Shown here piece by piece: positions 1 to 63,556 of a DNA stretch of 64,000 bases (its first letter is position 1; every line of letters begins with the position of its first letter). The stretch lies in contig JBAIAA010000013.1 of NCBI GenBank assembly GCA_037893245.1, forward strand, positions 744,001-808,000. Reading direction: 5' to 3'. Origin of the DNA: Crossaster papposus (taxonomy: Eukaryota > Echinodermata > Asteroidea > Velatida > Solasteridae). The notes beneath the pieces were generated by a model. It saw only the letters and a program-made list of their open reading frames with translations, searched no databases and was not told where the DNA came from. Both the position numbers and the translations under genes were made by a program.

Positions 1-58
1 GTAGAATGTTTTTAGAATGTCTGCTTTCATTTTGTTTGCATTTTCTAAATTTACATGA

Positions 59-130
59 GGCATAGTGGCGCAGTTGAAGCGTGCTGGGCCCATAACCCAG
101 AGGTCCGAGGATCGAAACCTCGCTCTGCTA
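59..130 (+). tRNA. A-type tRNA-iMet-like, unit 1
   Basis: Consensus A-type. Unit: B 283-355 (acceptor ends CAGAC), C 460-531 (D loop reads AGTATAA), D 687-758 (3' acceptor strand CTTTGAT). Confidence 0.75.
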
Positions 131-860
131 ACAAGTTTTTGGTATGACATGAGGTACTCGACTCGGAGTGACAAAGTAGACACTTTCTTGGTCAGTACCC
201 GAGAGTTTGGTTGACCACAACCTCGGTCTGCTCAGGATAATTATTTCCTTGAAAGTGATTTCATTTTCATTACAAATAGTTACGCAGACTGGTGCAGTGG
301 GAAGCGTGATGGGCCCATAACCCAGAGGCCCGAGGACCGAAACCTCGCTCTGCTAAAGAGGTATTTTTGCTTCACTGTTATTCAAATTTAATAATTATTT
401 TAGAATGTTTTTAGAATGTCTGCTTTTATTTTGTTTGTTGTTTTTCTAAATTTACATGAGGCATGGTGGCGCAGTATAAGCTTGCTGGGCCTATAACCCA
501 GAGTGCCGAGGATCAAAACCTCGTTCTGCTGCTAATAAGTTTTTGGTATGACTTGAAGTACTCGACTCAGAGTGACAAAGTAGACCCTTTCTTGGTCAGT
601 AACCGAGAGTTCGGATGATCACAACCTCGGTCTGCTCAGGATAAATTTGTATTTGATAGGGATTTCATTTTCATTAAAAATAGTTACGCAGAGTAGTGCA
701 GCGGGAGCGTGATGGGCCCATAGCCCAGAGGTCCGAGGACCAAAATCTCGCTTTGATAACTAGGTATTTTTGCTTCACTGCTATTCACATTTAATAAATA
801 TTGTAGAATGTTTTTAAAATGTCTGCTTTCATTTTTTTTGCATTTTCTAAATTTACATGA

Positions 861-932
861 GGCATAGTGGCGCAGTTGAAGCGTGCTGGGCCCATAACCC
901 AGAGGTCCGAGGATCAAAACCTCGCTCTGCTA
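861..932 (+). tRNA. A-type tRNA-iMet-like, unit 2
   Basis: T-loop is ATCAAAA, so the B box is weakened. Unit: B 1085-1157, C 1262-1333, D 1471-1542; 18-bp loss in relic 2. Confidence 0.65.
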
Positions 933-1644
933 ACAAGTTTTTGGTATGACATGAGGTACTCGACTCGGAGTGACAAAGTAGACACTTTCTTGGTCAGTAC
1001 CCGAGAGTTTGGTTGACCACAACCTCGGTCTGCTCAGGATAATTATTTCCTTGAAAGTGATTTCATTTTCATTACAAATAGTTACGCAGAGTGGTGCAGT
1101 GGGAAGCGTGATGGGCCCATAACCCAGAGGCCCGAGGACCGAAACCTCGCTCTGCTAAAGAGGTATTTTTGCTTCACTGTTATTCAAATTTAATAATTAT
1201 TTTAGAATGTTTTTAGAATGTCTGCTTTTATTTTGTTTGTTGTTTTTCTAAATTTACATGAGGCATGGTGGCGCAGTGGAAGCTTGCTGGGCCTATAACC
1301 CAGAGTGCCGAGGATCAAAACCTCGTTCTGCTGCTAATAAGTTTTTGGTATGACTTGAAGTACTCGACTCAGAGTGACAAAGTAGACCCTTTCTTGGTCA
1401 GTAACCGAGAGTTCGGATGATCACATAATTTTGTATTTGATAGGGATTTCATTTTCATTAAAAATAGTTACGCAGAGTAGTGCAGCGGGAGCGTGATGGG
1501 CCCATAGCCCAGAGGTCCGAGGACCAAAACCTCGCTTTGCTAACTAGGTATTTTTGCTTCACTGCTATTCACATTTAATAAATATTGTAGAATGTTTTTA
1601 ACATGTCTGCTTTCATTTTGTTTGCATTTTCTAAATTTACATGA

Positions 1645-1716
1645 GGCATAGTGGCGCAGTTGAAGCGTGCTGGGCCCATAACCCAGAGGTCCGAGGATCG
1701 AAACCTCGCTCTGCTA
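1645..1716 (+). tRNA. A-type tRNA-iMet-like, unit 3
   Basis: Consensus. Unit: B 1869-1941 (T stem CCTTG), C 2046-2117 (GGCATTG), D 2273-2344 (C27 restored, anticodon stem CTGGG). Confidence 0.75.
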
Positions 1717-2446
1717 ACAAGTTTTTGGTATGACATGAGGTACTCGACTCGGAGTGACAAAGTAGACACTTTCTTGGTCAGTACCCGAGAGTTTGGTTGA
1801 CCACAACCTCGGTCTGCTCAGGATAATTATTTCCTTGAAAGTGAGTTCATTTTCATTACAAATAGTTACGCAGAGTGGTGCAGTGGGAAGCGTGATGGGC
1901 CCATAACCCAGAGGCCCGAGGACCGAAACCTTGCTCTGCTAAAGAGGTATTTTTGCTTCACTGTTATTCAAATTTAATAATTATTTTAGAATGTTTTTAG
2001 AATGTCTGCTTTTATTTTGTTTGTTGTTTTTCTAAATTTACATGAGGCATTGTGGCGCAGTGGAAGCTTGCTGGGCCTATAACCCAGAGTGCCGAGGATC
2101 AAAACCTCGTTCTGCTGCTAATAAGTTTTTGGTATGACTTGAAGTACTCGACTCAGAGTGACAAAGTAGACCCTTTCTTGGTCAGTAACCGAGAGTTCGG
2201 ATGATCACAACCTCGGTCTGCTCAGGATAATTTTGTATTTGATAGGGATTTCATTTTCATTAAAAATAGTTACGCAGAGTAGTGCAGCGGGAGCGTGCTG
2301 GGCCCATAGCCCAGAGGTCCGAGGACCAAAACCTCGCTTTGCTAACTAGGTATTTTTGCTTCACTGCTATTCACATTTAATAAATATTGTAGAATGTTTT
2401 TAGAATGTCTGCTTTCATTTTGTTTGCATTTTCTAAATTTACATGA

Positions 2447-2518
2447 GGCATAGTGGCGCAGTTGAAGCGTGCTGGGCCCATAACCCAGAGGTCCGAGGAT
2501 CGAAACCTCGCACTGCTA
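2447..2518 (+). tRNA. A-type tRNA-iMet-like, unit 4
   Basis: 3' acceptor strand CACTGCT breaks the A6:U67 pair. Unit: B 2671-2743, C 2848-2919, D 3076-3147. Confidence 0.65.
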
Positions 2519-7251: not shown

Positions 7252-7323
7252 GGCATAGTGGCGCAGTTGAAGCGTGCTGGGCCCATAACCCAGAGGTCCG
7301 AGGATCGAAACCTCGCTCTGCTA
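7252..7323 (+). tRNA. A-type tRNA-iMet-like, unit 10
   Basis: Consensus. B 7476-7548, C 7653-7724, D 7881-7952. Confidence 0.75.
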
Positions 7324-8054
7324 ACAAGTTTTTGGTATGACATGAGGTACTCGACTCGGAGTGACAAAGTAGACACTTTCTTGGTCAGTACCCGAGAGTT
7401 TGGTTGACCACAACCTCGGTCTGCTCAGGATAATTATTTCCTTGAAAGTGATTTCATTTTCATTACAAATAGTTACGCAGAGTGGTGCAGTGGGAAGCGT
7501 GATGGGCCCATAACCCAGAGGCCCGAGGACCGAAACCTCGCTCTGCTAAAGAGGTATTTTTGCTTCACTGTTATTCAAATTTAATAATTATTTTAGAATG
7601 TTTTTAGAATGTCTGCTTTTATTTTGTTTGTTGTTTTTCTAAATTTACATGAGGCATGGTGGCGCAGTGGAAGCTTGCTGGGCCTATAACCCAGAGTGCC
7701 GAGGATCAAAACCTCGTTCTGCTGCTAATAAGTTTTTGGTATGACTTGAAGTACTCGACTCAGAGTGACAAAGTAGACCCTTTCTTGGTCAGTAACCGAG
7801 AGTTCGGATGATCACAACCTCGGTCTGCTCAGGATAATTTTGTATTTTGATAGGGATTTCATTTTCATTAAAAATAGTTACGCAGAGTAGTGCAGCGGGA
7901 GCGTGATGGGCCCATAGCCCAGACGTCCGAGGACCAAAACCTCGCTTTGCTAACTAGGTATTTTTGCTTCACTGCTATTCACATTTAATAAATATTGTAG
8001 AATGTTTTTATAATGTCTGCTTTCATTTTGTTTGCATTTTCTAAATTTACATGA

Positions 8055-9657: not shown

Positions 9658-9689
9658 AAGCGTGCTGGGCCCATAACCCAGAGGTCCGA

Positions 9690-13326: not shown

Positions 13327-13335
13327 TTAAACTAC
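13327..13335 (+). repeat. 5' arm of asymmetric terminal inverted repeat, copy 1
   Basis: TTAAACTAC at the very 5' end is the exact reverse complement of 14843-14851. The partner lies about 115 bp inside the 3' end, just before the terminal hairpin, which is the asymmetric arrangement described for Helitron2/Helentron elements. Copy 4 shows the same pair at 34174-34182 and 32592-32600. Confidence 0.6.
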
Positions 13336-14842
13336 TCTTGTGACGTCACTCTATTCAGAAAAGTGTCGATTATTTTAAAGAATGTACAGTTAACTGTACA
13401 TTATTTTAAGAATTAACAGAAAAAGAACGACTCAGTGGACACAGAAATTGCTATTGTTATATTTATTACAACTTAGTAAGAGCTATGTTGACAGTTTCTT
13501 TAGAGCTTTCAACAGTTAATTGTCTTGGAGGTCTCTTTGCCGTGTCGACGCGCTTATGCGGTTTCAGCCCGGCTGACTGCTCTCCTATGATCCTCACTGG
13601 TTCTGGCCACCGAAGCCCTTGTTGTAGAGACGAGATGCTGCCATGCTCGATCGTATGGAGTGGTTCGTCCAAAAGCCTTGTTGCACAGATTTGCCACAAC
13701 CTGGGATATCAACAATAACAAAAATAAAATAAGATGGATGCGCCAAACCGCATGTAACAAATTGCATCAAGGTTTGTCTAAAACATTCGAAAATGAAAAT
13801 GGCCCAAGAACTTATTACCACTAAGAAAACAAATGGAGGATAAACCTTTTTATTAGCAAGGTCGAAGCGATGGTTTGCAATTTAAAATATGTACATTTCT
13901 TGTAAATGGGAATAATTTTCGACGGAGATAGTTCATAGTTATGTCATACGTTCGAAGGTCCTAAAAAGTACTAATGCACAACTTTAAAAGGGCTGGTATA
14001 CGTATAACACGTACATGTACTTTACATTCGCTAACTCGCCCATGTTGTCCTGTCCTGTCGTATACCTGTGTAGCAAAAACGGCAGAAAAACCAACAGAAA
14101 TTAGTTTTGTTCCGAGTCTGGTTTGACGTGTGATAATGAAACCGTTCAGGGTTTAACAAAAGGCTGGTATACTTTCGACACGGAATAATGACTACTGACG
14201 ATATTGTTACACCATAAAAAGGGCTAAAATTGGTAAAAATATTAAGCCAAAATGAGCTGCTGATGAGAGCTAAGCCAAATGTTGGGAATAACAAGTTCTT
14301 GTTTCCTTTTCTTGCTTATTTTCCATCATTACCTGATCCGTTAGGGGTCCAAATCAGCCACGAGTAGTAGGAAGTTTCTTCACCTCTGAATTTGCCGCTT
14401 TAGTAAATCCTCATTGGAGTATAAATCCTCATCGAATATGTCCCAAAATACTGGTGTAAATCACCATCAAAATAAATTGGCGAGTCAGTTCTTGAAGTGA
14501 CACAACATATCTCCCAACGTATTCCTACTCAAAAATATGTACGGATCCTCACTGGAAGACATATTAGCGGAGTTAGCAGAGACACACCGACGCACAACAA
14601 TGTATGGCATAAAAATGACTTCGAAGTCGAATGTACTGGGCATTTTAAACACCCTCATTTTACCCAACCTTTATTCACTTGTTTGGTTACGCAACACGGA
14701 GACTAGACAGGACAAAGCTTTCACATTCCTTAGTAGCTTGCACCACTGAACAATGGAATTAAATCGTCTCATACTTTAAAGCATTAGTAAGAATTGACAC
14801 TTGTTGTTCCTTTTAAATATTGACAATGGGTGTAAAAGGGAC

Positions 14843-14851
14843 GTAGTTTAA
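14843..14851 (+). repeat. 3' subterminal arm of asymmetric inverted repeat, copy 1
   Basis: GTAGTTTAA complements the 5' terminus. From here to the 3' end, the outer sequence starting GTTTAAGTC also pairs imperfectly with the terminal GTCATTTCTCCTTAAC, enclosing the main hairpin. Confidence 0.6.
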
Positions 14852-14872
14852 GTCGGAGAAACGACTCAAAAG

Positions 14873-14944
14873 GTGGACATTCTTTGATTCAAATTGGGCT
14901 CGGACGCTGCGCGTCCTCGCCCATTCGAATCAAAGAATGTCCAC
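14873..14944 (+). other. 72-nt terminal hairpin, copy 1
   Basis: An 18-bp perfect stem (GTGGACATTC... with ...GAATGTCCAC) encloses a GGGC/GCCC step and an inner GGACGC/GCGTCC hairpin. It is conserved in all five copies: 16558-16629, 18200-18271, 32499-32570 and 37858-37929. Confidence 0.85.
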
Positions 14945-14966
14945 TTTTTCGTCATTTCTCCTTAAC

Positions 14967-15030
14967 ATAAGTTTTTGGTATGACTTGAAGTACTCGACTC
15001 AGAGTGACAAAGTAGACCCTTTCTTGGTCA
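14967..15030 (+). repeat. 64-bp satellite island between two element insertions
   Basis: This is a stretch of normal monomer-2 sequence: the C-type 3' flank with its T5 run, then the first half of relic 2. It continues exactly from 13326 on the left and to 18294 on the right. Joining the three pieces gives an uninterrupted monomer with no base gained or lost, which fixes the ends of all three forward elements. Confidence 0.95.
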
Positions 15031-16651
15031 TTAAACTACTCTTGTGACGTCACTCTATTCAGAAAAGTGTCGATTATTTTAAAGAATGTACACTTAACTG
15101 TACATTCTTTTAAGAATTAACAGAAAAAGAACGACTCAATGGACACAGAAATTGCTATTGTTATATTTATTACAACTTTAGTAAGAGCTATGTTGACAGT
15201 TTCTCTAGAGCTCTCAACAGTTGTTTTGGAGGTCTCTTTGCTGTGTCGACGCACTTTTGCGGTTTCGGCCCGGCTGACTGCTCTCCTATGGTGCTCACTG
15301 GTTCTGGCTACCGAAGCCCTTGTCATGCTCGACCGTATGGAGTGGTTCGTCCAAAAGCCTCGTTGCACAGATTTGCCACAACCTGGGATATCAACAATAA
15401 CAAAAATCAAATAAAATGGATGCGCCAACCCGCATGTAACAAATTGCATCAAGGTTTGTCTAAAACATTCGAAAATGAAAATGGCCCAATAACTTTGAGA
15501 AAAGAAAATGGGGAGGATAAACCATTTTAGTAGCAAGGTCGAAACGATGGTTCGCAATTTAAAATATGTACATGTAGTAGGAATTGATTTCTTGTAAATG
15601 GGAATAATTTTCGACGGAGATAGGCCATAGTTATGTCATTCGTTCAAAGGTCCTAAAAAGTACTACTAATGCACAACTTTAAAAGGGCCGATATACGTAC
15701 AACACGTACATGTACTTTACATTCGCTAACTCGCCCATGCTGTCCTGTTGTATACCTGTGTAGCAAAAACGGCAGAAAAACCAATAAAAATTTGTTTTGT
15801 TCCAAGTTTGGTTTGACATGTGATAATGAAACCGTTCAATGTTTAACAAAAGGCTGGTATACTTTTGACACGGAATAATGACTACTGACGCCAAGTTACA
15901 CCATAAAATGTGGCTAAAAATAATAAGCAAAAATGAGCTGCTGATGAGAGCTAAGCCAAATGTTGGGAATAAAAAGTTCTTGTTTTCTTTTCTTGCTTAT
16001 TTTCCATCATTACCTGATCTGTTACAAGGAGTCCAAATCGGCCACGAGTGTAGGAAGTTTCTTCACCTCTGAATCGGCCGCTTTAGTATAAATCCTCATT
16101 GGAGTATAAATCCTCATCGAATATGTCCCAAAATACTGGTTTAAATCACCATCAAAATAAATTGGCGAGTCAGTTCTTGAGGTGACACAACATATCTTCC
16201 AACGTATTCCTACTCAAAAATATGTACGGATCACCACTGGAAGACATTTTAGCGGAGTTAGCATAGACACACCCGACGCACAACAATGTATGGCATCAAA
16301 TGACTTCGATGTCGAATGTACTGGGCATTTTAAACACCCTCATTTTACCAAACCTTTATTCAATTGTTTGGTTACGCAACACGGAGAACAGACAGTACAA
16401 AGCTTTCACATACCTTAGTAGCTTCTACCACTGAACAATGGACTTAATTCATCTCATACTCTAAAGCATTAGTAAGAATTGACACTTGTTGTTCCTTTTA
16501 AATATTGACAATGGGTGTAAAAGGGACGTAGTTTAAGTCGGAGAAACGACTCAAAAGGTGGACATTCTTTGATTCAAATTGGGCTCGAACGCTGCGCGTC
16601 CTCGCCCATTCGAATCAAAGAATGTCCACTTTTTCGTCATTTCTCCTTAAC
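15031..16651 (+). mobile_element. Non-autonomous rolling-circle-like element, copy 2 (forward, 1,621 bp)
   Basis: Same ends and internal order as copy 1. It starts inside relic 2 of the same monomer, 64 bp after copy 1 ends, and its last base abuts the first base of copy 3. It has a one-base change in the 5' palindrome (CACTTAAC in place of CAGTTAAC) and small indels relative to the other copies. A 146-codon frame on the minus strand is open only in this copy. Confidence 0.65.
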
Positions 16652-18293
16652 TTAAACTACTCTTGTGACGTCACTCTATTCAGAAAAGTGTAGATTATTT
16701 TAAAGAATGTACAGTTAACTGTACATTCTTTTAGGAATTAACAGTAAAAGAACGACTCAATGGACACAGAAATTGCTATTGATATATTTATTACAACTTA
16801 GTAAAAGCTATGTTGACAATTTCTCTAGAGCTCTCAACAGTTGTCTTGGAGGTCTCTTTGCTGTGTCGACGCGCTTATGCAGTTTTCAGCCCGGCTGACT
16901 GCTCTCCTATGGTCCTCACTGGTTCTGGCCACCGAAGCTCTTGTTGTAGAGGCGAGATGCTGCCATGCTCGATCGTATGGAGTGGTTCGTCCAAAAGCCT
17001 TGTTGCACAGATTTGCCACAACCTGGGATATCAACAATAACAAAAATCAAATAAAATGGATGCGCCAACCCGCATGTAACAAATTGCATCAAGGTTTTTC
17101 TAAAACATTCAAAAATGAAAATGGCCCAAGAACTTATTACGACTAAGAAAACAAATGGGGAGGATAAACCTTTTCATTAGCAAGGTCGAAGCGATGGTTT
17201 GCGATTTAAAATATGTACATGTAATAGGAATTGATTTCTTGTAAATGGGAATAGTTTTCGACGGAGATAGGCCACAGTTATGTCAAACGTTTGAAGGTTC
17301 TAAAATGTACTACTAATACACAACTTTAAAAGGCCTGGTATACGTACAACACGTACATGTACTTTACATTCGCTAACTCGCCCATGCTGTCCTGTCGTAT
17401 ACCCGTGTAGCAAAAACGACAGAAAAACCAACAGAAATTTGTTTTGTTCCGACTAGTCTGGTTTGACATGTGATAATGAAACCGTTCAGAGTTTAACAAA
17501 AGGCTGGTATGCTTTCGACACGGAATAATGACTACTGACGCCAAGTTATTTACACCATAAAAAAGGGCTAAACATAATAAGCCAAAATGAGCTGCCGAGA
17601 GCCAAGCCAAATGTTGGGAATAACAAGTTTATTTTACCTGTTCTTGCTTATTTTCCCATCCTTTCCTGATCTGTTACAAGGGGTCCAAATCAGCCACGAG
17701 TGTAGGAAGTTTTTTCACCTGTGAATCTGCCGCTTTAGTATAAATCCTCATTGGAGTATAAATCCTCATCGAATATGTCCCAAAATACTGGTTTGAATCG
17801 CCATCAAATAAATTGGCGAGTCAGTTCTTGAGGTGACACAACATATCTCCCAACGTATTCCTACTCAAAAATATGTACGGATCATCACTGGAAGACATTT
17901 TAGCGGAGTTAGCAGAGACGCACAAGAATGTATAGCATCAAATGACTTCGATGTCCAACGTACTGGTCATTTTAAACACCCTCATTTTACCCAACCTTTA
18001 TTCAATTGTTTGGTTACGCAACACGGAGACCAGACAGGACAAAGCTTTCACATACCTTAGTAGCTTGTACCACTGAACAATGGACTTAATTCATCACATA
18101 CTTTAAAGCATTAGTAAGAATTGACACTTGTTGTTCCTTTTAAATATTGACAATGGGTGTAAAAGGGACGTAGTTTAAGTCGGAGAAACGACTCAAAAGG
18201 TGGACATTCTTTGATTCAAATTGGTCTCGGACGCTGCGCGTCCTCGCCCATTCGAATCAAAGAATGCCCACTTTTTGGTCATTTCTCCTTAAC
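16652..18293 (+). mobile_element. Non-autonomous rolling-circle-like element, copy 3 (forward, 1,642 bp)
   Basis: Fused head to tail with copy 2, with no base between the CTTAAC end and the TTAAAC start. It has a perfect 24-bp palindrome at 16705-16728. The right flank GTAACCG rejoins with the left flank of copy 2 (TTGGTCA) to restore relic 2 exactly, so copies 2 and 3 arrived as one dimer or by re-insertion at the same point. Confidence 0.65.
16705..16728 (+). other. 24-bp perfect palindrome near element 5' end
   Basis: GAATGTACAGTT followed by its exact reverse complement. It is also perfect at 34106-34129 and 39465-39488 and slightly decayed in copies 1 and 2. It may be a cruciform or a dimeric binding site. 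Confidence 0.7.
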
Positions 18294-18537
18294 GTAACCG
18301 AGAGTTCGGATGATCACATAATTTTGTATTTGATAGGGATTTCATTTTCATTAAAAATAGTTACGCAGAGTAGTGCAGCGGGAGCGTGATGGGCCCATAG
18401 CCCAGAGATCCGAGGACCAAAACCTCGCTTTGCTAACTAGGTATTTTTGCTTCACTGCTATTTACATTTAATAAATATTGTAGAATGTTTTTAACATGTC
18501 TGCTTTCATTTTGTTTGCATTTTCTAAATTTACATGA

Positions 18538-30721: not shown

Positions 30722-30793
30722 GGCATAGTGGCGCAGTTGAAGCGTGCTGGGCCCATAACCCAGAGGTCCGAGGATCGAAACCTCGCTCTGCTA
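30722..30793 (+). tRNA. A-type tRNA-iMet-like, unit 34
   Basis: Consensus. B 30946-31018, C 31123-31194 (T stem CTTCG), D 31350-31421. Confidence 0.75.
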
Positions 30794-32476: not shown

Positions 32477-34182
32477 GTTAAGGAGAAATGACGAAAAAGT
32501 GGACATTCTTTGATTCGAATGGGCGAGGACGCGCAGCGTCCGAGTCCAATTTGAATCAAAGAATGTCCACCTTTTGAGTCGTTTCTCCGACTTAAACTAC
32601 GTCCCTTTTACACCCATTGTCAATATTGAAAAGGAACAACAAGTGTCAATTCTTACTAATGCTTTAAAGTATGAGACGATTTAAGTCCATTGTTCAGTGG
32701 TGCAAGCTACTAAGGAATGTGAAAGCTTTGTCCTGTCTGGTCTCCGTGTTGCGTTACCAAACAATTGAATAAAGGTTGGGTAAAATGAGGGTATTTAAAA
32801 TGCCCAGTACATTCGACATCGAAGTCATTTGATGCCATACATTCTTGCTGGGCGTCGGGTGTGTCTCTGCGTAACTCCGCTAAAATGTCTTCCAGTGATG
32901 ATCCGTACGTAGGAATACGCTGGGAGATATGTTGTGTCACCTCAAGAACTGACTCGCCAATTTATTTTGATGGTGATTCAAACCAGTATTTTGGGACATA
33001 TTCGATGAGGATTTATACTCCAATGAGGATTCATACTAAAGCGGCAGATTCAGAGGTGAAGAAACTTCATACACTCGTGGTTGATTTGGACCCCTTGTAA
33101 CAGATCAGGTAATGATGAAAAATAAGCAAAACAAGGTAACAAGAACTTTTTATTTCCAACATTTGGCTTAGCTCTCAGCAGCTCATGTTGGCTTATTATT
33201 TTTAGCCCTTGGTGTATCTTAGCGTCAGTAGTCTTTATTCCGTGTCGAAAGTATGCCAGCCTTTTGTTAAACCCTGAACGGTTTCATTATCACATGTCAA
33301 ACCAGACTCGGAACAAAACAAATTTCTGTTGGTTTTTCTGCCGTTTTTGCTACACGGGTATACGACGAATGTAAAGCGAGTACATGTACGTGTTGTACGT
33401 ATACCAGCCCTTTTAAAGTTGTGCATATAGTAGTACTTTTTAGGACCTTCGAACGTATAACATAACTATGGCCTATCTCCGTCGAAAATTATTCCCATTT
33501 ACAAGAAATCAATTTCTATTACATGTACATTATTTTTAATTGCAAACCATCGCTTCAACCAAGGTTTATCCTCCCCTTTTTTTTTCTTAGTCGTAATACG
33601 CTCTTGGGCCATGTTCATTTTCGAATGTTTTAGACAAACCTTGATGCAATTTGTTACATGCGGGTTGACGCATCCATTTTATTTGATGCTGTATGTTGCC
33701 CTGTATATGTTTGTTTCTTGTACACAGCCATTTAGTCTCTGAAAAAGATCTTGTTAAGATCGAAATATTACGCCCTCTTAACTTTTTTAATTTTGTTGTT
33801 GTTGATATCCCAGGTTGTGGCAAATCTGTGCAACAAGGCTTTTGGACGAACCACTCCATACGATCGAGCATGGCAGCATCTCGCCTCTACAATAAGGGCT
33901 TCGGTGGCCAGAACCAGTGAGGACCATAGGGGAGCAGTCGGCCGGGCTGTAACCGCATAAGTGCGTCAACACGGCAAAGAGACCTCCAAGACAACTGTTG
34001 AGAGCTCTAGATAACTGTCAACATAGCTCTTACTAAGTTGGAATAAATATAACAATAGCAATTTCTGTGTCCATTGAGTCGTTCTTTTTCTGTTAATTCT
34101 TAAAAGAATGTACAGTTAACTGTACATTCTTTAAAATAATCGACACTTTTCTGAATAGAGTGACGTCACAAGAGTAGTTTAA
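32477..34182 (-). mobile_element. Non-autonomous rolling-circle-like element, copy 4 (inverted, 1,706 bp)
   Basis: Reverse orientation: it begins GTTAAGGAG and ends GTAGTTTAA. It sits in the spacer about 30 bp after a D-type tRNA; flanks TATTCA and CATTTAA rejoin exactly. It differs from copies 1-3 by an insertion of about 97 bp at 33688-33784 and many substitutions, so it belongs to a different subfamily or an older split. Confidence 0.65.
33688..33784. other. Extra insertion of about 97 bp inside element copy 4
   Basis: Absent from copies 1-3. It contains a GATCTT/AAGATC hairpin at 33747-33761 preceded by CTGAAAA and followed by GAAA, a layout reminiscent of a decayed hammerhead core as found in Penelope-like elements. 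Bounds are approximate. The same block is at about 39047-39143. Confidence 0.4.
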
Positions 34183-34255
34183 CATTTAATAAATATTGTA
34201 GAATGTTTTTAGAATGTCTGCTTTCATTTTGTTTGCATTTTCTAAATTTACATGA

Positions 34256-34327
34256 GGCATAGTGGCGCAGTTGAAGCGTGCTGGGCCCATAACCCAGAGG
34301 TCCGAGGATCGAAACCTCGCTCTGCTA
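34256..34327 (+). tRNA. A-type tRNA-iMet-like, unit 36
   Basis: Consensus. B 34480-34552 (3' end CTCTGCA), extra B 34705-34777, C/D hybrid 34881-34952. Confidence 0.75.
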
Positions 34328-34880
34328 ACAAGTTTTTGGTATGACATGAGGTACTCGACTCGGAGTGACAAAGTAGACACTTTCTCGGTCAGTACCCGAG
34401 AGTTTGGTTGACCACAACCTCGGTCTGCTCAGGATAATTATTTCCTTGAAAGTGATTTTATTTTCATTACAAATAGTTACGCAGAGTGGTGCAGTGGGAA
34501 GCGTGATGGGCCCATAACCCAGAGGCCCGAGGACCGAAACCTCGCTCTGCAAACAAGTTTTTGGTATGACATGAGGTACTCGACTCGGAGTGACAAAGTA
34601 GACACTTTCTTGGTCAGTACCCGAGAGTTTGGTTGACCACAACCTCGGTCTGCTCAGGATAATTATTTCCTTGAAAGTGATTTCATTTTCATTACAAATA
34701 GTTACGCAGAGTGGTGCAGTGGGAAGCGTGATGGGCCCATTACCCAGAGGCCCGAGGACCGAAACCTCGCTCTGCTAAAAGGTATTTTTGCTTCACTGTT
34801 ATTCAAATTTAATAATTATTTTAGAATGTTTTTAGAATGTCTGCTTTTATTTTGTTTGTTGTTTTTCTAAATTTACATGA

Positions 34881-34952
34881 GGCATGGTGGCGCAGTGGAA
34901 GCTTGCTGGGCCTATAACCCAGAGTGCCGAGGATCAAAACCTCGCTTTGCTA
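34881..34952 (+). pseudogene. C/D hybrid tRNA-like copy
   Basis: Same junction as at 28944. The same structure recurs at 40240 and 42065 within the duplicated block. Confidence 0.8.
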
Positions 34953-35054
34953 ACTAGGTATTTTTGCTTCACTGCTATTCACATTTAATAAATATTGTAG
35001 AATGTTTTTAGAATGTCTGCTTTCATTTTGTTTGCCTTTTCTAAATTTACATGA

Positions 35055-35126
35055 GGCATAGTGGCGCAGTTGAAGCGTGCTGGGCCCATAACCCAGAGGT
35101 CCGAGGATCGAAACCTCGCTCTGCTA
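35055..35126 (+). tRNA. A-type tRNA-iMet-like, unit 37
   Basis: Consensus. B 35279-35351, extra B 35504-35576, C 35680-35751, D 35907-35978. Confidence 0.75.
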
Positions 35127-36080
35127 ACAAGTTTTTGGTATGACATGAGGTACTCGACTCGGAGTGACAAAGTAGACACTTTCTTGGTCAGTACCCGAGA
35201 GTTTGGTTGACCACAACCTCGGTCTGCTCAGGATAATTATTTCCTTGAAAGTGATTTTATTTTCATTACAAATAATTACGCAGAGTGGTGCAGTGGGAAG
35301 CGTGATGGGCCCATAACCCAGAGGCCCGAGGACCGAAACCTCGCTCTGCTAACAAGTTTTTGGTATGACATGAGGTACTCGACTCGGAGTGACAAAGTAG
35401 ACACTTTCTTGGTCAGTACCCGAGAGTTTGGTTGACCACAACCTCAGTCTGCTCAGGATAATTATTTCCTTGAAAGTGATTTCATTTTCATTACAAATAG
35501 TTATGCAGAGTGGTGCAGTGGGAAGCGTGATGGGCCCATTACCCAGAGGCCCGAGGACCGAAACCTCGCTCTGCTAAAAGGTATTTTTGCTTCACTGTTA
35601 TTCAAATTTAATAATTATTTTAGAATTTTTTTAGAATGTCTGCTTTTATTTTGTTTGTTGTTTTTCTAAATTTACATGAGGCATGGTGGCGCAGTGGAAG
35701 CTTGCTGGGCCTATAACCCAGAGTGCCGAGGATCAAAACCTCGTTCTGCTGCTAATACGTTTTTGGTATGACTTGAAGTACTCGACTCAGAGTGACAAAG
35801 TAGACCCTTTCTTGGTCAGTAACCGAGAGTTCGGATGATCACAACCTCGGTCTGCTCAGGATAATGTTGTATTTGATAGGGATTTCATTTTCATTAAAAA
35901 TAGTTACGCAGAGTAGTGCAGCGGGAGCGTGATGGGCCCATAGCCCAGAGGTCCGAGGACCAAAACCTCGCTTTGCTAACTAGGTATTTTTGCTTCACTG
36001 CTATTCACATTTAATAAATATTGTAGAATGTTTTTAGAATGTCTGCTTTCATTTTGTTTGCATTTTCTAAATTTACATGA

Positions 36081-36152
36081 GGCATAGTGGCGCAGTTGAA
36101 GCGTGCTGGGCCCATAACCCAGAGGTCCGAGGATCGAAACCTCGCTCTGCTA
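36081..36152 (+). tRNA. A-type tRNA-iMet-like, unit 38
   Basis: Consensus; duplicate of unit 34. B 36305-36377, C 36482-36553, D 36709-36780. Confidence 0.75.
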
Positions 36153-36882
36153 ACAAGTTTTTGGTATGACATGAGGTACTCGACTCGGAGTGACAAAGTA
36201 GACACTTTCTTGGTCAGTACCCGAGAGTTTGGTTGACCACAACCTCGGTCTGCTCAGGATAATTATTTCCTTTAAAGTGATTTCATTTTCATTACAAATA
36301 GTTACGCAGAGTGGTGCAGTGGGAAGCGTGATGGGCCCATAACCCAGAGGCCCGAGGACCGAAACCTCGCTCTGCTAAAGAGGTATTTTTGCTTCACTGT
36401 TATTCAAATTTAATAGTTATTTTAGAATGTTTTTAGAATGTCTGCTTTTATTTTGTTTGTTGTTTTTCTAAATTTACATGAGGCATGGTGGCGCAGTGGA
36501 AGCTTGCTGGGCCTATAACCCAGAGTGCCGAGGATCAAAACTTCGTTCTGCTGCTAATAAGTTTTTGGTATGACTTGAAGTACTCGACTCAGAGTGACAA
36601 AGTAGACCCTTTCTTGGTCAGTAACCGAGAGTTCGGATGATCACAACCTCGGTCTGCTCAGGATAATTTTGTATTTGATAGGGATTTCATTTTCATTAAA
36701 AATAGTTACGCAGAGTAGTGCAGCGGGAGCGTGAGGGGCCCATAGCCCAGAGGTCCGAGGACCAAAACTTCGCTTTGCTAACTAGGTATTTTTGCTTCAC
36801 TGCTATTGACATTTAATAAATATTATAGAATGTTTTTAGAATGTCTGCTTTCATTTTGTTTGCATTTTCTAAATTTACATGA

Positions 36883-36954
36883 GGCATAGTGGCGCAGTTG
36901 AAGCGTGCTGGGCCCATAACCCAGAGGTCCGAGGATCGAAACCTCGCTCTGCTA
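36883..36954 (+). tRNA. A-type tRNA-iMet-like, unit 39
   Basis: Consensus; duplicate of unit 35. B 37107-37179, extra B 37332-37404, C 37508-37579, D 37735-37806. Confidence 0.75.
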
Positions 36955-37835
36955 ACAAGTTTTTGGTATGACATGAGGTACTCGACTCGGAGTGACAAAG
37001 TAGACACTTTCTTGGTCAGTACCCGAGAGTTTGGTTGACCACAACCTCGGTCTGCTCAGGATAATTATTTCCTTGAAAGTGATTTTATTTTCATTACAAA
37101 TAATTACGCAGAGTGGTGCAGTGGGAAGCGTGATGGGCCCATAACCCAGAGGCCCGAGGACCGAAACCTCGCTCTGCTAACAAGTTTTTGGTATGACATG
37201 AGGTACTCGACTCGGAGTGACAAAGTAGACACTTTCTTGGTCAGTACCCGAGAGTTTGGTTGACCACAACCTCAGTCTGCTCAGGATAATTATTTCCTTG
37301 AAAGTGATTTCATTTTCATTACAAATAGTTATGCAGAGTGGTGCAGTGGGAAGCGTGATGGGCCCATTACCCAGAGGCCCGAGGACCGAAACCTCGCTCT
37401 GCTAAAAGGTATTTTTGCTTCACTGTTATTCAAATTTAATAATTATTTTAGAATGTTTTTAGAATGTCTGCTTTTATTTTGTTTGTTGTTTTTCTAAATT
37501 TACATGAGGCATGGTGGCGCAGTGGAAGCTTGCTGGGCCTATAACCCAGAGTGCCGAGGATCAAAACCTCGTTCTGCTGCTAATACGTTTTTGGTATGAC
37601 TTGAAGTACTCGACTCAGAGTGACAAAGTAGACCCTTTCTTGGTCAGTAACCGAGAGTTCGGATGATCACAACCTCGGTCTGCTCAGGATAATGTTGTAT
37701 TTGATAGGGATTTCATTTTCATTAAAAATAGTTACGCAGAGTAGTGCAGCGGGAGCGTGATGGGCCCATAGCCCAGAGGTCCGAGGACCAAAACCTCGCT
37801 TTGCTAACTAGGTATTTTTGCTTCACTGCTATTCA

Positions 37836-39541
37836 GTTAAGGAGAAATGACGAAAAAGTGGACATTCTTTGATTCGAATGGGCGAGGACGCGCAGCGTCC
37901 GAGTCCAATTTGAATCAAAGAATGTCCACCTTTTGAGTCGTTTCTCCGACTTAAACTACGTCCCTTTTACACCCATTGTCAATATTGAAAAGGAACAACA
38001 AGTGTCAATTCTTACTAATGCTTTAAAGTATGAGACGATTTAAGTCCATTGTTCAGTGGTGCAAGCTACTAAGGAATGTGAAAGCTTTGTCCTGTCTGGT
38101 CTCCGTGTTGCGTTACCAAACAATTGAATAAAGGTTGGGTAAAATGAGGGTATTTAAAATGCCCAGTACATTCGACATCGAAGTCATTTGATGCCATACA
38201 TTCTTGCTGGGCGTCGGGTGTGTCTCTGCGTAACTCCGCTAAAATGTCTTCCAGTGATGATCCGTACGTAGGAATACGCTGGGAGATATGTTGTGTCACC
38301 TCAAGAACTGACTCGCCAATTTATTTTGATGGTGATTCAAACCAGTATTTTGGGACATATTCGATAAGGATTTATACTCCAATGAGGATTCATACTAAAG
38401 CGGCAGATTCAGAGGTGAAGAAACTTCATACACTCGTGGTTGATTTGGACCCCTTGTAACAGATCAGGTAATGATGAAAAATAAGCAAAACAAGGTAACA
38501 AGAACTTTTTATTTCCAACATTTGGCTTAGCTCTCAGCAGCTCATGTTGGCTTATTATTTTTAGCCCTTGGTGTATCTTAGCGTCAGTAGTCTTTATTCC
38601 GTGTCGAAAGTATGCCAGCCTTTTGTTAAACCCTGAACGGTTTCATTATCACATGTCAAACCAGACTCGGAACAAAACAAATTTCTGTTGGTTTTTCTGC
38701 CGTTTTTGCTACACGGGTATACGACGAATGTAAAGCGAGTACATGTACGTGTTGTACGTATACCAGCCCTTTTAAAGTTGTGCATATAGTAGTACTTTTT
38801 AGGACCTTCGAACGTATAACATAACTATGGCCTATCTCCGTCGAAAATTATTCCCATTTACAAGAAATCAATTTCTATTACATGTACATTATTTTTAATT
38901 GCAAACCATCGCTTCAACCAAGGTTTATCCTCCCCTTTTTTTTTCTTAGTCGTAATACGCTCTTGGGCCATGTTCATTTTCGAATGTTTTAGACAAACCT
39001 TGATGCAATTTGTTACATGCGGGTTGACGCATCCATTTTATTTGATGCTGTATGTTGCCCTGTATATGTTTGTTTCTTGTACACAGCCATTTAGTCTCTG
39101 AAAAAGATCTTGTTAAGATCGAAATATTACGCCCTCTTAACTTTTTTAATTTTGTTGTTGTTGATATCCCAGGTTGTGGCAAATCTGTGCAACAAGGCTT
39201 TTGGACGAACCACTCCATACGATCGAGCATGGCAGCATCTCGCCTCTACAATAAGGGCTTCGGTGGCCAGAACCAGTGAGGACCATAGGGGAGCAGTCGG
39301 CCGGGCTGTAACCGCATAAGTGCGTCAACACGGCAAAGAGACCTCCAAGACAACTGTTGAGAGCTCTAGATAACTGTCAACATAGCTCTTACTAAGTTGG
39401 AATAAATATAACAATAGCAATTTCTGTGTCCATTGAGTCGTTCTTTTTCTGTTAATTCTTAAAAGAATGTACAGTTAACTGTACATTCTTTAAAATAATC
39501 GACACTTTTCTGAATAGAGTGACGTCACAAGAGTAGTTTAA
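37836..39541 (-). mobile_element. Non-autonomous rolling-circle-like element, copy 5 (inverted, 1,706 bp)
   Basis: A copy of element 4 lying exactly 5,359 bp downstream, in the same satellite site. I noticed one substitution between them (33008 against 38367). It is explained by duplication of the host block, not by a second transposition. Confidence 0.75.
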
Positions 39542-39614
39542 CATTTAATAAATATTGTAGAATGTTTTTAGAATGTCTGCTTTCATTTTGTTTGCATTTT
39601 CTAAATTTACATGA

Positions 39615-39686
39615 GGCATAGTGGCGCAGTTGAAGCGTGCTGGGCCCATAACCCAGAGGTCCGAGGATCGAAACCTCGCTCTGCTA
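39615..39686 (+). tRNA. A-type tRNA-iMet-like, unit 40
   Basis: Consensus; duplicate of unit 36. B 39839-39911 (CTCTGCA end), extra B 40064-40136, C/D hybrid 40240-40311. Confidence 0.75.
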
Positions 39687-40239
39687 ACAAGTTTTTGGTA
39701 TGACATGAGGTACTCGACTCGGAGTGACAAAGTAGACACTTTCTCGGTCAGTACCCGAGAGTTTGGTTGACCACAACCTCGGTCTGCTCAGGATAATTAT
39801 TTCCTTGAAAGTGATTTTATTTTCATTACAAATAGTTACGCAGAGTGGTGCAGTGGGAAGCGTGATGGGCCCATAACCCAGAGGCCCGAGGGCCGAAACC
39901 TCGCTCTGCAAACAAGTTTTTGGTATGACATGAGGTACTCGACTCGGAGTGACAAAGTAGACACTTTCTTGGTCAGTACCCGAGAGTTTGGTTGACCACA
40001 ACCTCGGTCTGCTCAGGATAATTATTTCCTTGAAAGTGATTTCATTTTCATTACAAATAGTTACGCAGAGTGGTGCAGTGGGAAGCGTGATGGGCCCATT
40101 ACCCAGAGGCCCGAGGACCGAAACCTCGCTCTGCTAAAAGGTATTTTTGCTTCACTGTTATTCAAATTTAATAATTATTTTAGAATGTTTTTAGAATGTC
40201 TGCTTTTATTTTGTTTGTTGTTTTTCTAAATTTACATGA

Positions 40240-40311
40240 GGCATGGTGGCGCAGTGGAAGCTTGCTGGGCCTATAACCCAGAGTGCCGAGGATCAAAACC
40301 TCGCTTTGCTA
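40240..40311 (+). pseudogene. C/D hybrid tRNA-like copy
   Basis: Counterpart of 34881, 5,359 bp downstream. Confidence 0.8.
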
Positions 40312-40413
40312 ACTAGGTATTTTTGCTTCACTGCTATTCACATTTAATAAATATTGTAGAATGTTTTTAGAATGTCTGCTTTCATTTTGTTTGCATTTTC
40401 TAAATTTACATGA

Positions 40414-40485
40414 GGCATAGTGGCGCAGTTGAAGCGTGCTGGGCCCATAACCCAGAGGTCCGAGGATCGAAACCTCGCTCTGCTA
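40414..40485 (+). tRNA. A-type tRNA-iMet-like, unit 41
   Basis: Consensus; duplicate of unit 37. B 40638-40710, extra B 40863-40935, C 41039-41110, D 41266-41337. Confidence 0.75.
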
Positions 40486-41439
40486 ACAAGTTTTTGGTAT
40501 GACATAAGGTACTCGACTCGGAGTGACAAAGTAGACACTTTCTTGGTCAGTACCCGAGAGTTTGGTTGACCACAACCTCGGTCTGCTCAGGATAATTATT
40601 TCCTTGAAAGTGATTTTATTTTCATTACAAATAATTACGCAGAGTGGTGCAGTGGGAAGCGTGATGGGCCCATAACCCAGAGGCCCGAGGACCGAAACCT
40701 CGCTCTGCTAACAAGTTTTTGGTATGACATGAGGTACTCGACTCGGAGTGACAAAGTAGACACTTTCTTGGTCAGTACCCGAGAGTTTGGTTGACCACAA
40801 CCTCAGTCTGCTCAGGATAATTATTTCCTTGAAAGTGATTTCATTTTCATTACAAATAGTTATGCAGAGTGGTGCAGTGGGAAGCGTGATGGGCCCATTA
40901 CCCAGAGGCCCGAGGACCGAAACCTCGCTCTGCTAAAAGGTATTTTTGCTTCACTGTTATTCAAATTTAATAATTATTTTAGAATTTTTTTAGAATGTCT
41001 GCTTTTATTTTGTTTGTTGTTTTTCTAAATTTACATGAGGCATGGTGGCGCAGTGGAAGCTTGCTGGGCCTATAACCCAGAGTGCCGAGGATCAAAACCT
41101 CGTTCTGCTGCTAATACGTTTTTGGTATGACTTGAAGTACTCGACTCAGAGTGACAAAGTAGACCCTTTCTTGGTCAGTAACCGAGAGTTCGGATGATCA
41201 CAACCTCGGTCTGCTCAGGATAATGTTGTATTTGATAGGGATTTCATTTTCATTAAAAATAGTTACGCAGAGTAGTGCAGCGGGAGCGTGATGGGCCCAT
41301 AGCCCAGAGGTCCGAGGACCAAAACCTCGCTTTGCTAACTAGGTATTTTTGCTTCACTGCTATTCACATTTAATAAATATTGTAGAATGTTTTTAGAATG
41401 TCTGCTTTCATTTTGTTTGCATTTTCTAAATTTACATGA

Positions 41440-41511
41440 GGCATAGTGGCGCAGTTGAAGCGTGCTGGGCCCATAACCCAGAGGTCCGAGGATCGAAACC
41501 TCGCTCTGCTA
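41440..41511 (+). tRNA. A-type tRNA-iMet-like, unit 42
   Basis: Consensus; downstream pattern matches units 36 and 40. B 41664-41736 (CTCTGCA end), extra B 41889-41961, C/D hybrid 42065-42136. Confidence 0.75.
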
Positions 41512-42064
41512 ACAAGTTTTTGGTATGACATGAGGTACTCGACTCGGAGTGACAAAGTAGACACTTTCTCGGTCAGTACCCGAGAGTTTGGTTGACCACA
41601 ACCTCGGTCTGCTCAGGATAATTATTTCCTTGAAAGTGATTTTATTTTCATTACAAATAGTTACGCAGAGTGGTGCAGTGGGAAGCGTGATGGGCCCATA
41701 ACCCAGAGGCCCGAGGACCGAAACCTCGCTCTGCAAACAAGTTTTTGGTATGACATGAGGTACTCGACTCGGAGTGACAAAGTAGACACTTTCTTGGTCA
41801 GTACCCGAGAGTTTGGTTGACCACAACCTCGGTCTGCTCAGGATAATTATTTCCTTGAAAGTGATTTCATTTTCATTACAAATAGTTACGCAGAGTGGTG
41901 CAGTGGGAAGCGTGATGGGCCCATTACCCAGAGGCCCGAGGACCGAAACCTCGCTCTGCTAAAAGGTATTTTTGCTTCACTGTTATTCAAATTTAATAAT
42001 TATTTTAGAATGTTTTTAGAATGTCTGCTTTTATTTTGTTTGTTGTTTTTCTAAATTTACATGA

Positions 42065-60668: not shown

Positions 60669-61398
60669 ACAAGTTTTTGGTATGACATGAGGTACTCGAC
60701 TCGGAGTGACAAAGTAGACACTTTCTTGGTCAGTACCCGAGAGCTTGGTTGACCACAACCTCGGTCTGCTCAGGATAATTATTTCCTTGAAAGTGATTTC
60801 ATTTCCATTACAAATAGTTACGCAGAGTGGTGCAGTGGGAAGCGTGATGGGCCCATAACCCAGAGGCCCGAGGACCGAAACCTCGCTCTGCTAAAGAGGT
60901 ATTTTTGCTTCACTGTTATTCAAATTTAATAATTATTTTAGAATGTTTTTAGAATGTCTGCTTTTATTTTGTTTGTTGTTTTTTTAAATTTACATGAGGC
61001 ATGGTGGCGCAGTGGAAGCTTGCTGGGCCTATAACCCAGAGTGCCGAGGATCAAAACCTCGTTCTGCTGCTAATAAGTTTTTGGTATGACTTGAAGTACT
61101 CGACTCAGAGTGACAAAGTAGACCCTTTCTTGGTCAGTAACCGAGAGTTCGAATGATCACAACCTCGGTCTGCTCAGGATAATTTTGTATTTGATAGGGA
61201 TTTCATTTTTATTAAAAATAGTTACGCAGAGTAGTGCAGTGGGAGCGTGATGGGCCCATAGCCCAGAGGTCCGAGGACCAAAACCTCGCTTTGCTAACTA
61301 GGTATTTTTGCTTCACTGCTATTCACATTTAATAAATATTGTAGAATGTTTTTAGAATGTCTGCTTTCATTTTGTTTGCATTTTCTAAATTTACATGA

Positions 61399-61470
61399 GG
61401 CATAGTGGCGCAGTTGAAGCGTGCTGGGCCCATAACCCAGAGGTCCGAGGATCGAAACCTCACTCTGCTA
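61399..61470 (+). tRNA. A-type tRNA-iMet-like, unit 68
   Basis: T stem strand CCTCA, as in unit 14. B 61623-61695, C 61800-61871, D 62027-62098. Confidence 0.65.
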
Positions 61471-62200
61471 ACAAGTTTTTGGTATGACATGAGGTACTCG
61501 ACTCGGAGTGACAAAGTAGACACTTTCTTGGTCAGTACCTGAGAGTTTGGTTGACCACAACCTAGGTCTGCTCAGGATAATTATTTCCTTGAAAGTGATT
61601 TCATTTTCATTACAAATAGTTACGCAGAGTGGTGCAGTGGGAAGCGTGATGGGCCCATAACCCAGAGGCCCGAGGACCGAAACCTCGCTCTGCTAAGGAG
61701 GTATTTTTGCTTCACTGTTATTCAAATTTAATAATTATTTTAGAATGTTTTTAGAATGTCTGCTTTTATTTTGTTTGTTGTTTTTCTAAATTTACATGAG
61801 GCATGGTGGCGCAGTGGAAGCTTGCTGGGCCTATAACCCAGAGTGCCGAGGATCAAAACCTCGTTCTGCTGCTAATAAGTTTTTGGTATGACTTGAAGTA
61901 CTCGACTCAGAGTGACAAAGTAGACCCTTTCTTGGTCAGTAACCGAGAGTTCGGATGATCACAACCTCGGTCTGCTCAGGATAATTTTGTATTTGATAGG
62001 GATTTCATTTTCATTAAAAATAGTTACGCAGAGTAGTGCAGCGGGAGCGTGATGGGCCCATAGCCCAGAGGTCCGAGGACCAAAACCTCGCTTTGCTAAC
62101 TAGGTATTTTTGCTTCACTGCTATTCACATTTAATAAATATTGTAGAATGTTTTTAGAATGTCTGCTTTCATTTTGTTTGCATTTTCTAAATTTACATGA

Positions 62201-62272
62201 GGCATAGTGGCGCAGTTGAAGCGTGCTGGGCCCATAACCCAGAGGTCCGAGGATCGAAACCTCGCTCTGCTA
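62201..62272 (+). tRNA. A-type tRNA-iMet-like, unit 69
   Basis: Consensus. B 62425-62497 (CTCTGCA end), extra B 62650-62722, C 62826-62897 (A-like GGCATAG acceptor), D 63053-63124. Confidence 0.75.
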
Positions 62273-63227
62273 ACAAGTTTTTGGTATGACATGAGGTACT
62301 CGACTCGGAGTGACAAAGTAGACACTTTCTCGGTCAGTACCCGAGAGTTTGGTTGACCACAACCTCGGTCTGCTCAGGATAATTATTTCCTTGAAAGTGA
62401 TTTTATTTTCATTACAAATAGTTACGCAGAGTGGTGCAGTGGGAAGCGTGATGGGCCCATAACCCAGAGGCCCGAGGACCGAAACCTCGCTCTGCAAACA
62501 AGTTTTTGGTATGACATGAGGTACTCGACTCGGAGTGACAAAGTAGACACTTTCTTGGTCAGTACCCGAGAGTTTGGTTGACCACAACCTCGGTCTGCTC
62601 AGGATAATTATTTCCTTGAAAGTGATTTCATTTTCATTACAAAAAGTTACGCAGAGTGGTGCAGTGGGAAGCGTGATGGGCCCATTACCCAGAGGCCCGA
62701 GGACCGAAACCTCGCTCTGCTAAAAGGTATTTTTGCTTCACTGTTATTCAAATTTAATAATTATTTTAGAATGTTTTTAGAATGTCTGCTTTTATTTTGT
62801 TTGTTGTTTTTCTAAATTTACATGAGGCATAGTGGCGCAGTGGAAGCTTGCTGGGCCTATAACCCAGAGTGCCGAGGATCAAAACCTCGTTCTGCTGCTA
62901 ATAAGTTTTTGGTATGACTTGAAGTACTCGACTCAGAGTGACAAAGTAGACCCTTTCTTGGTCAGTAACCGAGAGTTTGGATGATCACAACCTCGGTCTG
63001 CTCAGGATAATTTTGTATTTGATAGGGATTTCATTTTCATTAAAAATAGTTACGCAGAGTAGTGCAGCGGGAGCGTGATGGGCCCATAGCCCAGAGGTCC
63101 GAGGACCAAAACCTCGCTTTGCTAAGTAGGTATTTTTGCTTCACTGCTATTCACATTTAATAAATATTGTAGAATGTTTTTAGAATGTCTGCTTTTTATT
63201 TTGTTTGCATTTTCTAAATTTACATGA

Positions 63228-63299
63228 GGCATAGTGGCGCAGTTGAAGCGTGCTGGGCCCATAACCCAGAGGTCCGAGGATCGAAACCTCGCTCTGCTA
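63228..63299 (+). tRNA. A-type tRNA-iMet-like, unit 70 (last)
   Basis: Consensus. B 63452-63524 is the last tRNA-like copy; the array stops about 30 bp after it. Confidence 0.75.
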
Positions 63300-63556
63300 A
63301 CAAGTTTTTGGTATGACATGAGGTACTCGACTCGGAGTGACAAAGTAGACACTTTCTTGGTCAGTACCTGAGAGTTTGGTTGACCACAACCTCGGTCTGC
63401 TCAGGATAATTATTTCCTTGAAAGTGATTTCATTTTCATTACAAATAGTTACGCAGAGTGGTGCAATGGGAAGCGTGATGGGCCCATAACCCAGAGGCCC
63501 GAGGACCGAAACCTCGCTCTGCTAAAGAGGTATTTTTGCTTCACTGTTATTCAAAT

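Follow-up and report, generated by a model that had tools for sequence, protein, structure and literature searches.

Organization of the array

The 64,000-nucleotide stretch of DNA analyzed here (the window) comes from the asteroid echinoderm Crossaster papposus (contig JBAIAA010000013.1, positions 744,001 to 808,000) and is occupied almost throughout by a head-to-tail tandem array, the unit of which carries several transfer RNA (tRNA)-like segments of initiator type. The array extends from position 1 to about 63,559, is broken by inserts and, with its left end lying beyond the window, is at least 63.6 kb long. Once the inserts are subtracted, it amounts to 55,223 bases when mapped with BLAST and to 55,244 bases when array intervals are taken from a lowest-cost path mapping of all copies (~57–79 per site), which is the source of the figures used below unless another mapping is named. 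The 802-bp consensus unit contains, all on the forward strand, four recognizable tRNA-like segments, A (1–72), B (225–297), C (402–473) and D (629–700), and two further, much degraded ones, x (108–175) and x2 (512–579). The distance between successive A segments is exactly 802 bp in 35 of 69 cases; 31 of the other 34 range from 398 to 1,431 bp and the remaining three span inserts. An initial annotation of this stretch had described about 275 initiator tRNA-Met-like genes, four per 802-bp repeat, in an array of about 55 kb, and both the period and the length are borne out by these measurements.

The number of segments was obtained in two ways. BLAST yielded 332 hits, all of them on the forward strand, and subtraction of 55 short matches to the relics left 277 A–D segments (A 70, B 78, C 68, D 61). 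In the path mapping, where a segment was counted as single-type at 90% of its length or more, there are 258 single-type segments (A 69, B 68, C 60, D 61) and 18 in which two types are joined, 276 altogether, in agreement with the earlier count; the same mapping gives 134 copies of x and x2. The check proposed with that annotation, a search with tRNA covariance models, returned 207 matches that reach the 29-bit gathering score of the Rfam tRNA model across the array, contrary to the outcome that was to have refuted it on sequence grounds. Rfam, BLAST and path mapping all support a satellite made of initiator tRNA paralogs. ARAGORN made only 62 calls, 56 of tRNA-Met and six of tRNA-Ile(TAT), and all six of the latter are segments joined from C to D. 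The coordinates of one representative unit and of the other features are collected in Table 1.

Table 1. Features of the array in the window (bit scores of A–D are from the Rfam tRNA model, measured in one clean unit)
Feature	Position	Strand	Remarks
Whole array, including inserts	1–63559	+	Mapping to the 802-bp consensus; Tandem Repeats Finder
Representative higher-order unit, 803 bp	7252–8054	+	2 substitutions and 1 insertion or deletion (indel) relative to consensus
Segment A, initiator-tRNA-like	7252–7323	+	Anticodon CAT; 49.8 bits; one broken acceptor pair (T5 x C68)
Relic x, decayed tRNA	7359–7426	+	Alignable from about tRNA position 6 to 71; consensus x against C scores 46, null maximum 28
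Segment B, initiator-tRNA-like	7476–7548	+	Anticodon CAT; 38.0 bits; pairs 1–72 and 27–43 broken; C55 in T loop
Segment C, initiator-tRNA-like	7653–7724	+	Anticodon TAT; 35.5 bits; two broken pairs
Relic x2, second half-unit counterpart of x	7763–7830	+	Consensus x2 against C scores 62, null maximum 33
Segment D, initiator-tRNA-like	7881–7952	+	28.7 bits (29-bit cut-off just missed); two broken consensus pairs
Interruptions of the array	13327–14966, 15031–18293, 32477–34182, 37836–39541
Inserted element, three copies of ~1.6 kb	13327–14966, 15031–16651, 16652–18293	+	Two insertion places; 64 bp of array between first and second copy
Inserted element, fourth copy	32477–34182	-	Same element, reversed
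Inserted element, fifth copy	37836–39541	-	99.9% identical to fourth, carried by the block duplication
Block duplication, period 5359 bp	30220–41734 (30220–36375, 35579–41734)	+	99.72% identical, insert included

Two smaller features of the unit and its limits were also observed. In the D–A and B–C spacers of the consensus (e.g., around 7592–7616), A and C are each preceded by a short duplicated motif, TAGAATGTTTTTAGAATGT, which varies in some units. On the right, the array stops in a TTATTATTA run within the B–C spacer, at about 63,559, and positions 63560–64000 are non-array sequence. Exact-pattern scans of viral contigs and genome contigs gave no match. When one 802-bp unit was compared with phages, seven Campylobacter phage records were found, each 79.5% identical over query bases 2–74, two of them annotated there as tRNA-Met and five without a feature, which points to ordinary tRNA resemblance.

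The tRNA-like segments and their state

Initiator tRNAs are recognized by the CAT anticodon with C33, the GGG:CCC pairs of the anticodon stem, A54 together with A60, and the A1:U72 pair. The consensus of A has the CAT anticodon with C33, GGG:CCC, A54 and A60 but carries G1 in place of A1; that of B has the same set with C1. It is on the features present in A and B that the assignment of the array segments to the initiator type rests. Compared with a human initiator tRNA, A is identical at 62 of 72 positions, C at 55 and D at 57, B having been left out of this comparison. The anticodon is CAT in 69/69 full copies of A, 46 of which are identical to the consensus, and TAT in 59/60 full copies of C, which thus combines the body of an initiator tRNA with an isoleucine-type anticodon.

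None of the four is intact. The consensus of A has one mispair and those of B, C and D have two each; moreover, A lacks G18, and a C occupies T-loop position 55, within box B, in both B and D. The cloverleaf lies 7.4 (B), 11.8 (C) and 10.3 (D) kcal/mol above the folding optimum. RNA folding of the single segments gave a cloverleaf in none of the four (z from -0.58 to -2.19), a result not counted against A because the human initiator tRNA did not give one either. The CCA triplet is absent after the ends of the consensus tRNAs, which makes an origin from retroposed mature tRNAs unlikely. The word “genes” used in the initial annotation therefore overstates what are initiator-tRNA-like segments with broken pairs in all four consensus sequences, one of them (C) with a TAT anticodon and another (D) just below the cut-off.

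Its count of four tRNA paralogs per unit stands for A–D and overlooked x and x2. The Rfam tRNA model gave no match at x up to an E-value of 10 in one clean unit, and x2 was likewise unseen. Nevertheless, all eight comparisons of x and x2 with A–D score between 30 and 62, each above its own maximum (24–33) from 1000 dinucleotide shuffles, and gap-free alignments of 66 bases (A with x) and 65 bases (C with x2) begin at tRNA position 6 or 7 and end at 71. Both x and x2 are old, decayed tRNA relics, and the unit holds six tRNA-derived segments.

Variation of tRNA bodies and spacers

In a working tRNA array, the genes would be expected to be intact and conserved relative to the spacers. Neither is the case here. 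Over all copies, segregating sites number 15/72 in A, 15/73 in B, 12/72 in C, 20/72 in D, 17/68 in x, 12/68 in x2 and 75/377 in the spacers. Taken together, A–D (62/289) do not differ from the spacers (p 0.63; ratio 1.08, 95% confidence interval (CI) 0.80–1.45), nor does A by itself (ratio 1.05, CI 0.57–1.64). The same holds for a set of 47 clean units, selected out of 50 units of 795–806 bp by leaving out three rearranged ones with 111 indel positions each (A–D 47/289, spacers 52/371, p 0.44). Among the distinct stem variants of A, 10 of 11 break the pair, the random expectation being 98/120. Box B is intact in 0.90 (A), 0.96 (B), 0.80 (C) and 0.87 (D) of the copies, the unit-wide mean being 0.93, and these values fall at percentiles 0.27, 0.61, 0.03 and 0.17 within the unit; box B is thus not specially kept.

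Two earlier estimates were discarded. An early comparison of diversity (0.0217 in tRNA, 0.0527 elsewhere; circular-shift fraction 0.079) suggested apparent constraint, but rearranged units had inflated the alignment and C and x2 had been labeled as A and x. A greedy BLAST mapping (78/289 against 85/377, p 0.20, ratio 1.20) set the joints between types too early, so that some B sequence was scored as variation in A and some C sequence as variation in D; it also gave box B percentiles of 0.09, 0.59, 0.04 and 0.15 and 19 joints at 10 positions, all superseded by the path mapping. On tRNA versus spacer variation both mappings lead to the same conclusion.

An older time scale is provided by the two halves of the unit, A–x–B and C–x2–D. 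The half-units differ at 13/144 aligned sites plus four gap columns in the tRNA bodies, at 6/71 sites in the relic and at 19/183 sites plus two gap columns in the spacers; A and C, which align without gaps, differ at 9/72 sites. The half-units are thus ~10% apart, the 802-bp units being only ~1% apart, which is the organization of a higher-order repeat. On either time scale, that of the present copies and that of the half-unit split, the tRNA shows no protection relative to the spacer. When the substitutions since the split are polarized with the paralogous segments, A and B have one each, C has seven and D five; one B/D difference is an indel and there is one ambiguous site each in A/C and B/D.

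Homogenization and rearrangement

The 47 clean units are about 99% identical. Any two of them differ at 9.8 of the 802 positions on average, and no pair is identical; pairs lying at most 1 kb apart (35 pairs) differ by 8.4 on average. These differences look like those of a homogenized tandem array. The block duplication involves 6156 bp, with 17 mismatches between the copies. In addition, the path mapping shows 21 large out-of-register joints. Three of these are half-unit exchanges located in spacers; in the other 18, one tRNA-like body continues into another at the corresponding position (nine from B to A, seven from C to D, one from A to B and one from D to A). The preference for matching positions of the tRNA bodies fits unequal exchange through tRNA homology. 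The joints occupy only six distinct positions, each slidable by 2 to 19 bases, so that many of them are repeats of the same event and the independent events are few. Five small deletions of 18–21 bp in or at x2 are found outside the 21 large joints.

Origin of the array

We consider it likely that the array is satellite DNA that goes back to a small initiator tRNA gene cluster and is organized in higher-order repeats homogenized by unequal exchange. It has several of the features expected of a tRNA-derived satellite, namely, a long, nearly uniform head-to-tail arrangement, tRNA-descended sequence within the unit and tRNA that evolves like the rest of it, and it behaves as a satellite of tRNA-gene descent and not as a store of working tRNA genes. 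In the proposed sequence of events, a ~400-bp cluster with three initiator-tRNA segments (A', x and B'), of which x was already decaying, would have duplicated, and its halves would have drifted ~10% apart; A and B of the first half would have stayed tRNA-like during this drift, while C and D decayed. The resulting 802-bp double unit would then have been amplified into a long array and kept ~99% uniform through unequal exchange, for which the tRNA bodies may act as stretches of homology. We infer that the majority of copies do not give rise to a working initiator tRNA, and that exchange, not tRNA demand, now determines copy number. Some copies, chiefly of A, may still be transcribed by Pol III (RNA polymerase III).

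Several observations weigh against this reading. Segment A scores 49.8 bits with the Rfam tRNA model, and its cloverleaf is only 3.1 kcal/mol above the folding optimum, no worse than that of a human initiator tRNA (4.2). A run of four T lies at most 22 nt downstream in 68/69 copies of A, 68/68 of B, 44/60 of C and 57/61 of D (0.50 for spacer positions); these runs resemble the Pol III terminator, yet they are copies of only four ancestral sites. Stem variants keep the pair in 3/6 cases in B, 3/9 in C and 4/10 in D, with ~0.2 expected; these numbers are small, and transitions may account for them. Box A is intact in 0.92–0.96 of the copies, above the middle of the unit (percentiles 0.74, 0.69, 0.63 and 0.52 for A–D). 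Furthermore, ~70 redundant copies could be functional even if no constraint is visible among them, and with its interval of 0.57–1.64 segment A by itself could be under mild constraint. The polarized counts suggest earlier constraint on A and B and so qualify the statement that the tRNA evolves like the rest of the unit. The excess of substitutions in C and D (12, against 2 in A and B; binomial p 0.013) persists if one D-loop site is taken as an indel (2 against 11, p 0.022). The relic shows the reverse, with four substitutions in x and none in x2 (two sites being ambiguous), and differs in this from the tRNA segments (Fisher p 0.005 or 0.006); the first half-unit was therefore not simply slower, the slower part being its tRNA segments. 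Constraint probably acted on A and B during some of the time since the half-unit split. The likeliest reason is that for a while after the duplication, and before the 802-bp unit was amplified, these two segments still served a purpose or underwent conversion by working genes.

Some of these observations also speak for a working multigene array, in which A, and perhaps B, would be real initiator tRNA genes kept for supply and C, D, x and x2 would be passengers. The bit score of A, its invariant CAT (69/69), the 46/69 copies identical to consensus, the terminator-like T run (68/69) and the better preservation of ancestral bases in A and B than in C and D (2 against 12) all point that way, and large single-type arrays have been called as genes in Phytophthora (PMC9584435). 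We regard it as very unlikely, because A varies like the spacers (15/72 and 75/377), 10 of its 11 stem variants break pairs, and its consensus combines a broken acceptor pair with G1 in place of A1 and the loss of G18. On the same grounds, the supply of Pol III transcripts put forward in the initial annotation now appears a less probable role. So do its two other proposals, the binding of TFIIIC in bulk and action as a chromatin boundary. Both belong to an explanation of the array as a chromatin element, in which rows of box A and box B would bind TFIIIC or Pol III in bulk and serve as a boundary, a pericentromeric platform or a clustering platform with no need for working tRNA. The boxes and T runs are indeed recognizable in most copies. 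Box B is the main TFIIIC contact, and it is not specially kept in any segment (percentiles 0.27, 0.61, 0.03 and 0.17), B and D carrying C55 within it. Precedents exist in the human tRNA tandem repeat proposed as a boundary (PMC4041453) and in the nuclear-organization role raised for the Phytophthora arrays (PMC9584435); here we hold such a function to be quite improbable. We would give as little credit to the idea of a working element of the host chromosome built wholly from initiator tRNA genes with A copies still transcribed, be it a higher-order satellite of the centromere or its surroundings, a platform for Pol III and TFIIIC clustering or something similar.

The unit might also derive from a mobile element gone tandem, either a short interspersed nuclear element (SINE) with a tRNA head or a Helenus-type terminal-repeat retrotransposon in miniature (TRIM) with a tRNA-like long terminal repeat (LTR). 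SINE-derived satellites are described in squamates (PMC10702118), and Helenus elements with tRNA-like LTRs are reported from six animal phyla (PMC10886601). The hallmarks of a Helenus TRIM are paired LTRs, a primer-binding site, a polypurine tract and a target duplication of 4–5 bp. Tandem SINEs or LTRs would share a body behind each tRNA-like head, and the stretches that follow A, x and B are unlike one another (the fraction of 500 shuffles scoring as well was 1.00, 0.44 and 0.45), which argues against this origin and leaves it with a small probability. Finally, the 99.7% identity of the block duplication might raise the suspicion of an assembly artifact. The absence of any identical pair among the 47 clean units, the frequency of variants confined to single units and the existence of rearranged units make an artifact extremely unlikely.

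Comparison with known tRNA arrays

The present result on tRNA and spacers is the reverse of that described for the human tRNA variable-number tandem repeat at 1q23.3, which resembles the present array in being a tandem repeat of tRNA-bearing units (7.3 kb each, unstable in copy number) and in which the tRNA genes are conserved to mouse and most of the spacer is not (PMC4041453). This difference leads us to group the array with tRNA-bearing satellites. Among these, the maize tRNA satellite tRNASAT_ZM, a 91.95-kb array on chromosome 4L of Mo17 (PMC10335936), is likewise long and tandem, is counted among the satellites and takes its name from tRNA; it belongs to a plant, and the present unit has six tRNA-derived segments, four of them recognizable and all of initiator type. 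Animal tandem repeats with a tRNA-like segment comprise the newt PolIII/TAN (~360 nt, derived from tRNA-Glu), the Xenopus OAX / satellite I, Rana/polIII and Hydromantes Hy/polIII, the tRNA origin of the last being called questionable (PMC10702118, PMC9659126). As these are described, their units have a tRNA-like segment each, whereas here there are six, derived from an initiator tRNA and arranged in a higher-order repeat.

Other tandem arrays are treated as genes. In Phytophthora infestans, large tandem arrays, either of one tRNA type or of dimers and trimers, are ascribed to unequal crossing-over; they include 271 copies of tRNA-Cys with a unit of 513 nt and, on Chr8 and Chr12, tRNA-Met (CAT) arrays (PMC9584435). 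That work takes them to be tRNA genes and excludes pseudogenes from one of its analyses, and relics or satellite-like decay are not described in the passages concerned. The view that a single-type array of such density is unusual has to be restricted accordingly, given the 271 tRNA-Cys copies; the array found here is a dense, decayed, all-initiator variant. Hydractinia and Nematostella have arrays of non-coding RNAs with tens to hundreds of near-identical copies and near-identical spacers; their tRNA tandem arrays are animal arrays of near-identical copies like the present one, and their significance is called unclear, in an account that makes no tRNA–spacer comparison (PMC11067881). Entamoeba also has tandem, homogenized tRNA-bearing units, which differ in containing up to five tRNA genes with short tandem repeats between them and, in the account given, no clear non-functional copies (PMC2652664). 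Inside the present array, Tandem Repeats Finder with a longest period of 500 reported only periods of 174–404 bp, and spacers of short tandem repeats of the Entamoeba type were not found. In the Arabidopsis tRNA-Cys cluster, single-isotype tandem units (~420 bp) lie, as here, beside a pseudogene and vary in number; the reference cluster has four units, and another cluster, of nearly 40 kb and 27 units, carries tRNA-Ser and tRNA-Tyr (PMC10701932). In Drosophila, five to seven initiator genes are reported per genome, and one initiator gene with an anticodon shift is described (PMC7884595).

No initiator-tRNA satellite is named in the titles or abstract openings of the literature matches listed (open-licence papers). 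The present array stands out in that each unit carries so many tRNA segments, all of initiator origin and in graded states of decay, within a higher-order structure. It illustrates how a tRNA gene cluster becomes a higher-order satellite, with near-intact, decayed and relic segments side by side in one unit. The comparison of tRNA body with spacer variation provides a clear test to part tRNA-derived satellites from working tRNA arrays, and the array is a warning that one locus can inflate an automated count of tRNAs by dozens to hundreds.

Inserted elements

The interruptions of the array are due to a mobile-element-like sequence of ~1.6–1.7 kb, present in five copies that are 93.6–95.0% identical, apart from the duplicated pair (99.9%). 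It starts with TTAAACTACTC and ends in a hairpin, with 30-bp arms in the first copy, followed by TTTCTCCTTAAC. A similarity search in “near” mode with one insert copy against plasmids found no match, and Pfam gave no match at 0.01 for five of the 25 open reading frames (at least 50 amino acids) in 13331–18317. There are three distinct insertion sites, at which, by eye, the flanks rejoin the uninterrupted unit exactly, with no target duplication; this mode of insertion recalls elements of the rolling-circle (Helitron-like) type. The second and third copies lie directly end to end. The reversed copies contain an extra ~100 bp (~33690–33800 and ~39050–39155), possibly a nested insertion, which inspection by eye did not reveal in the second copy.

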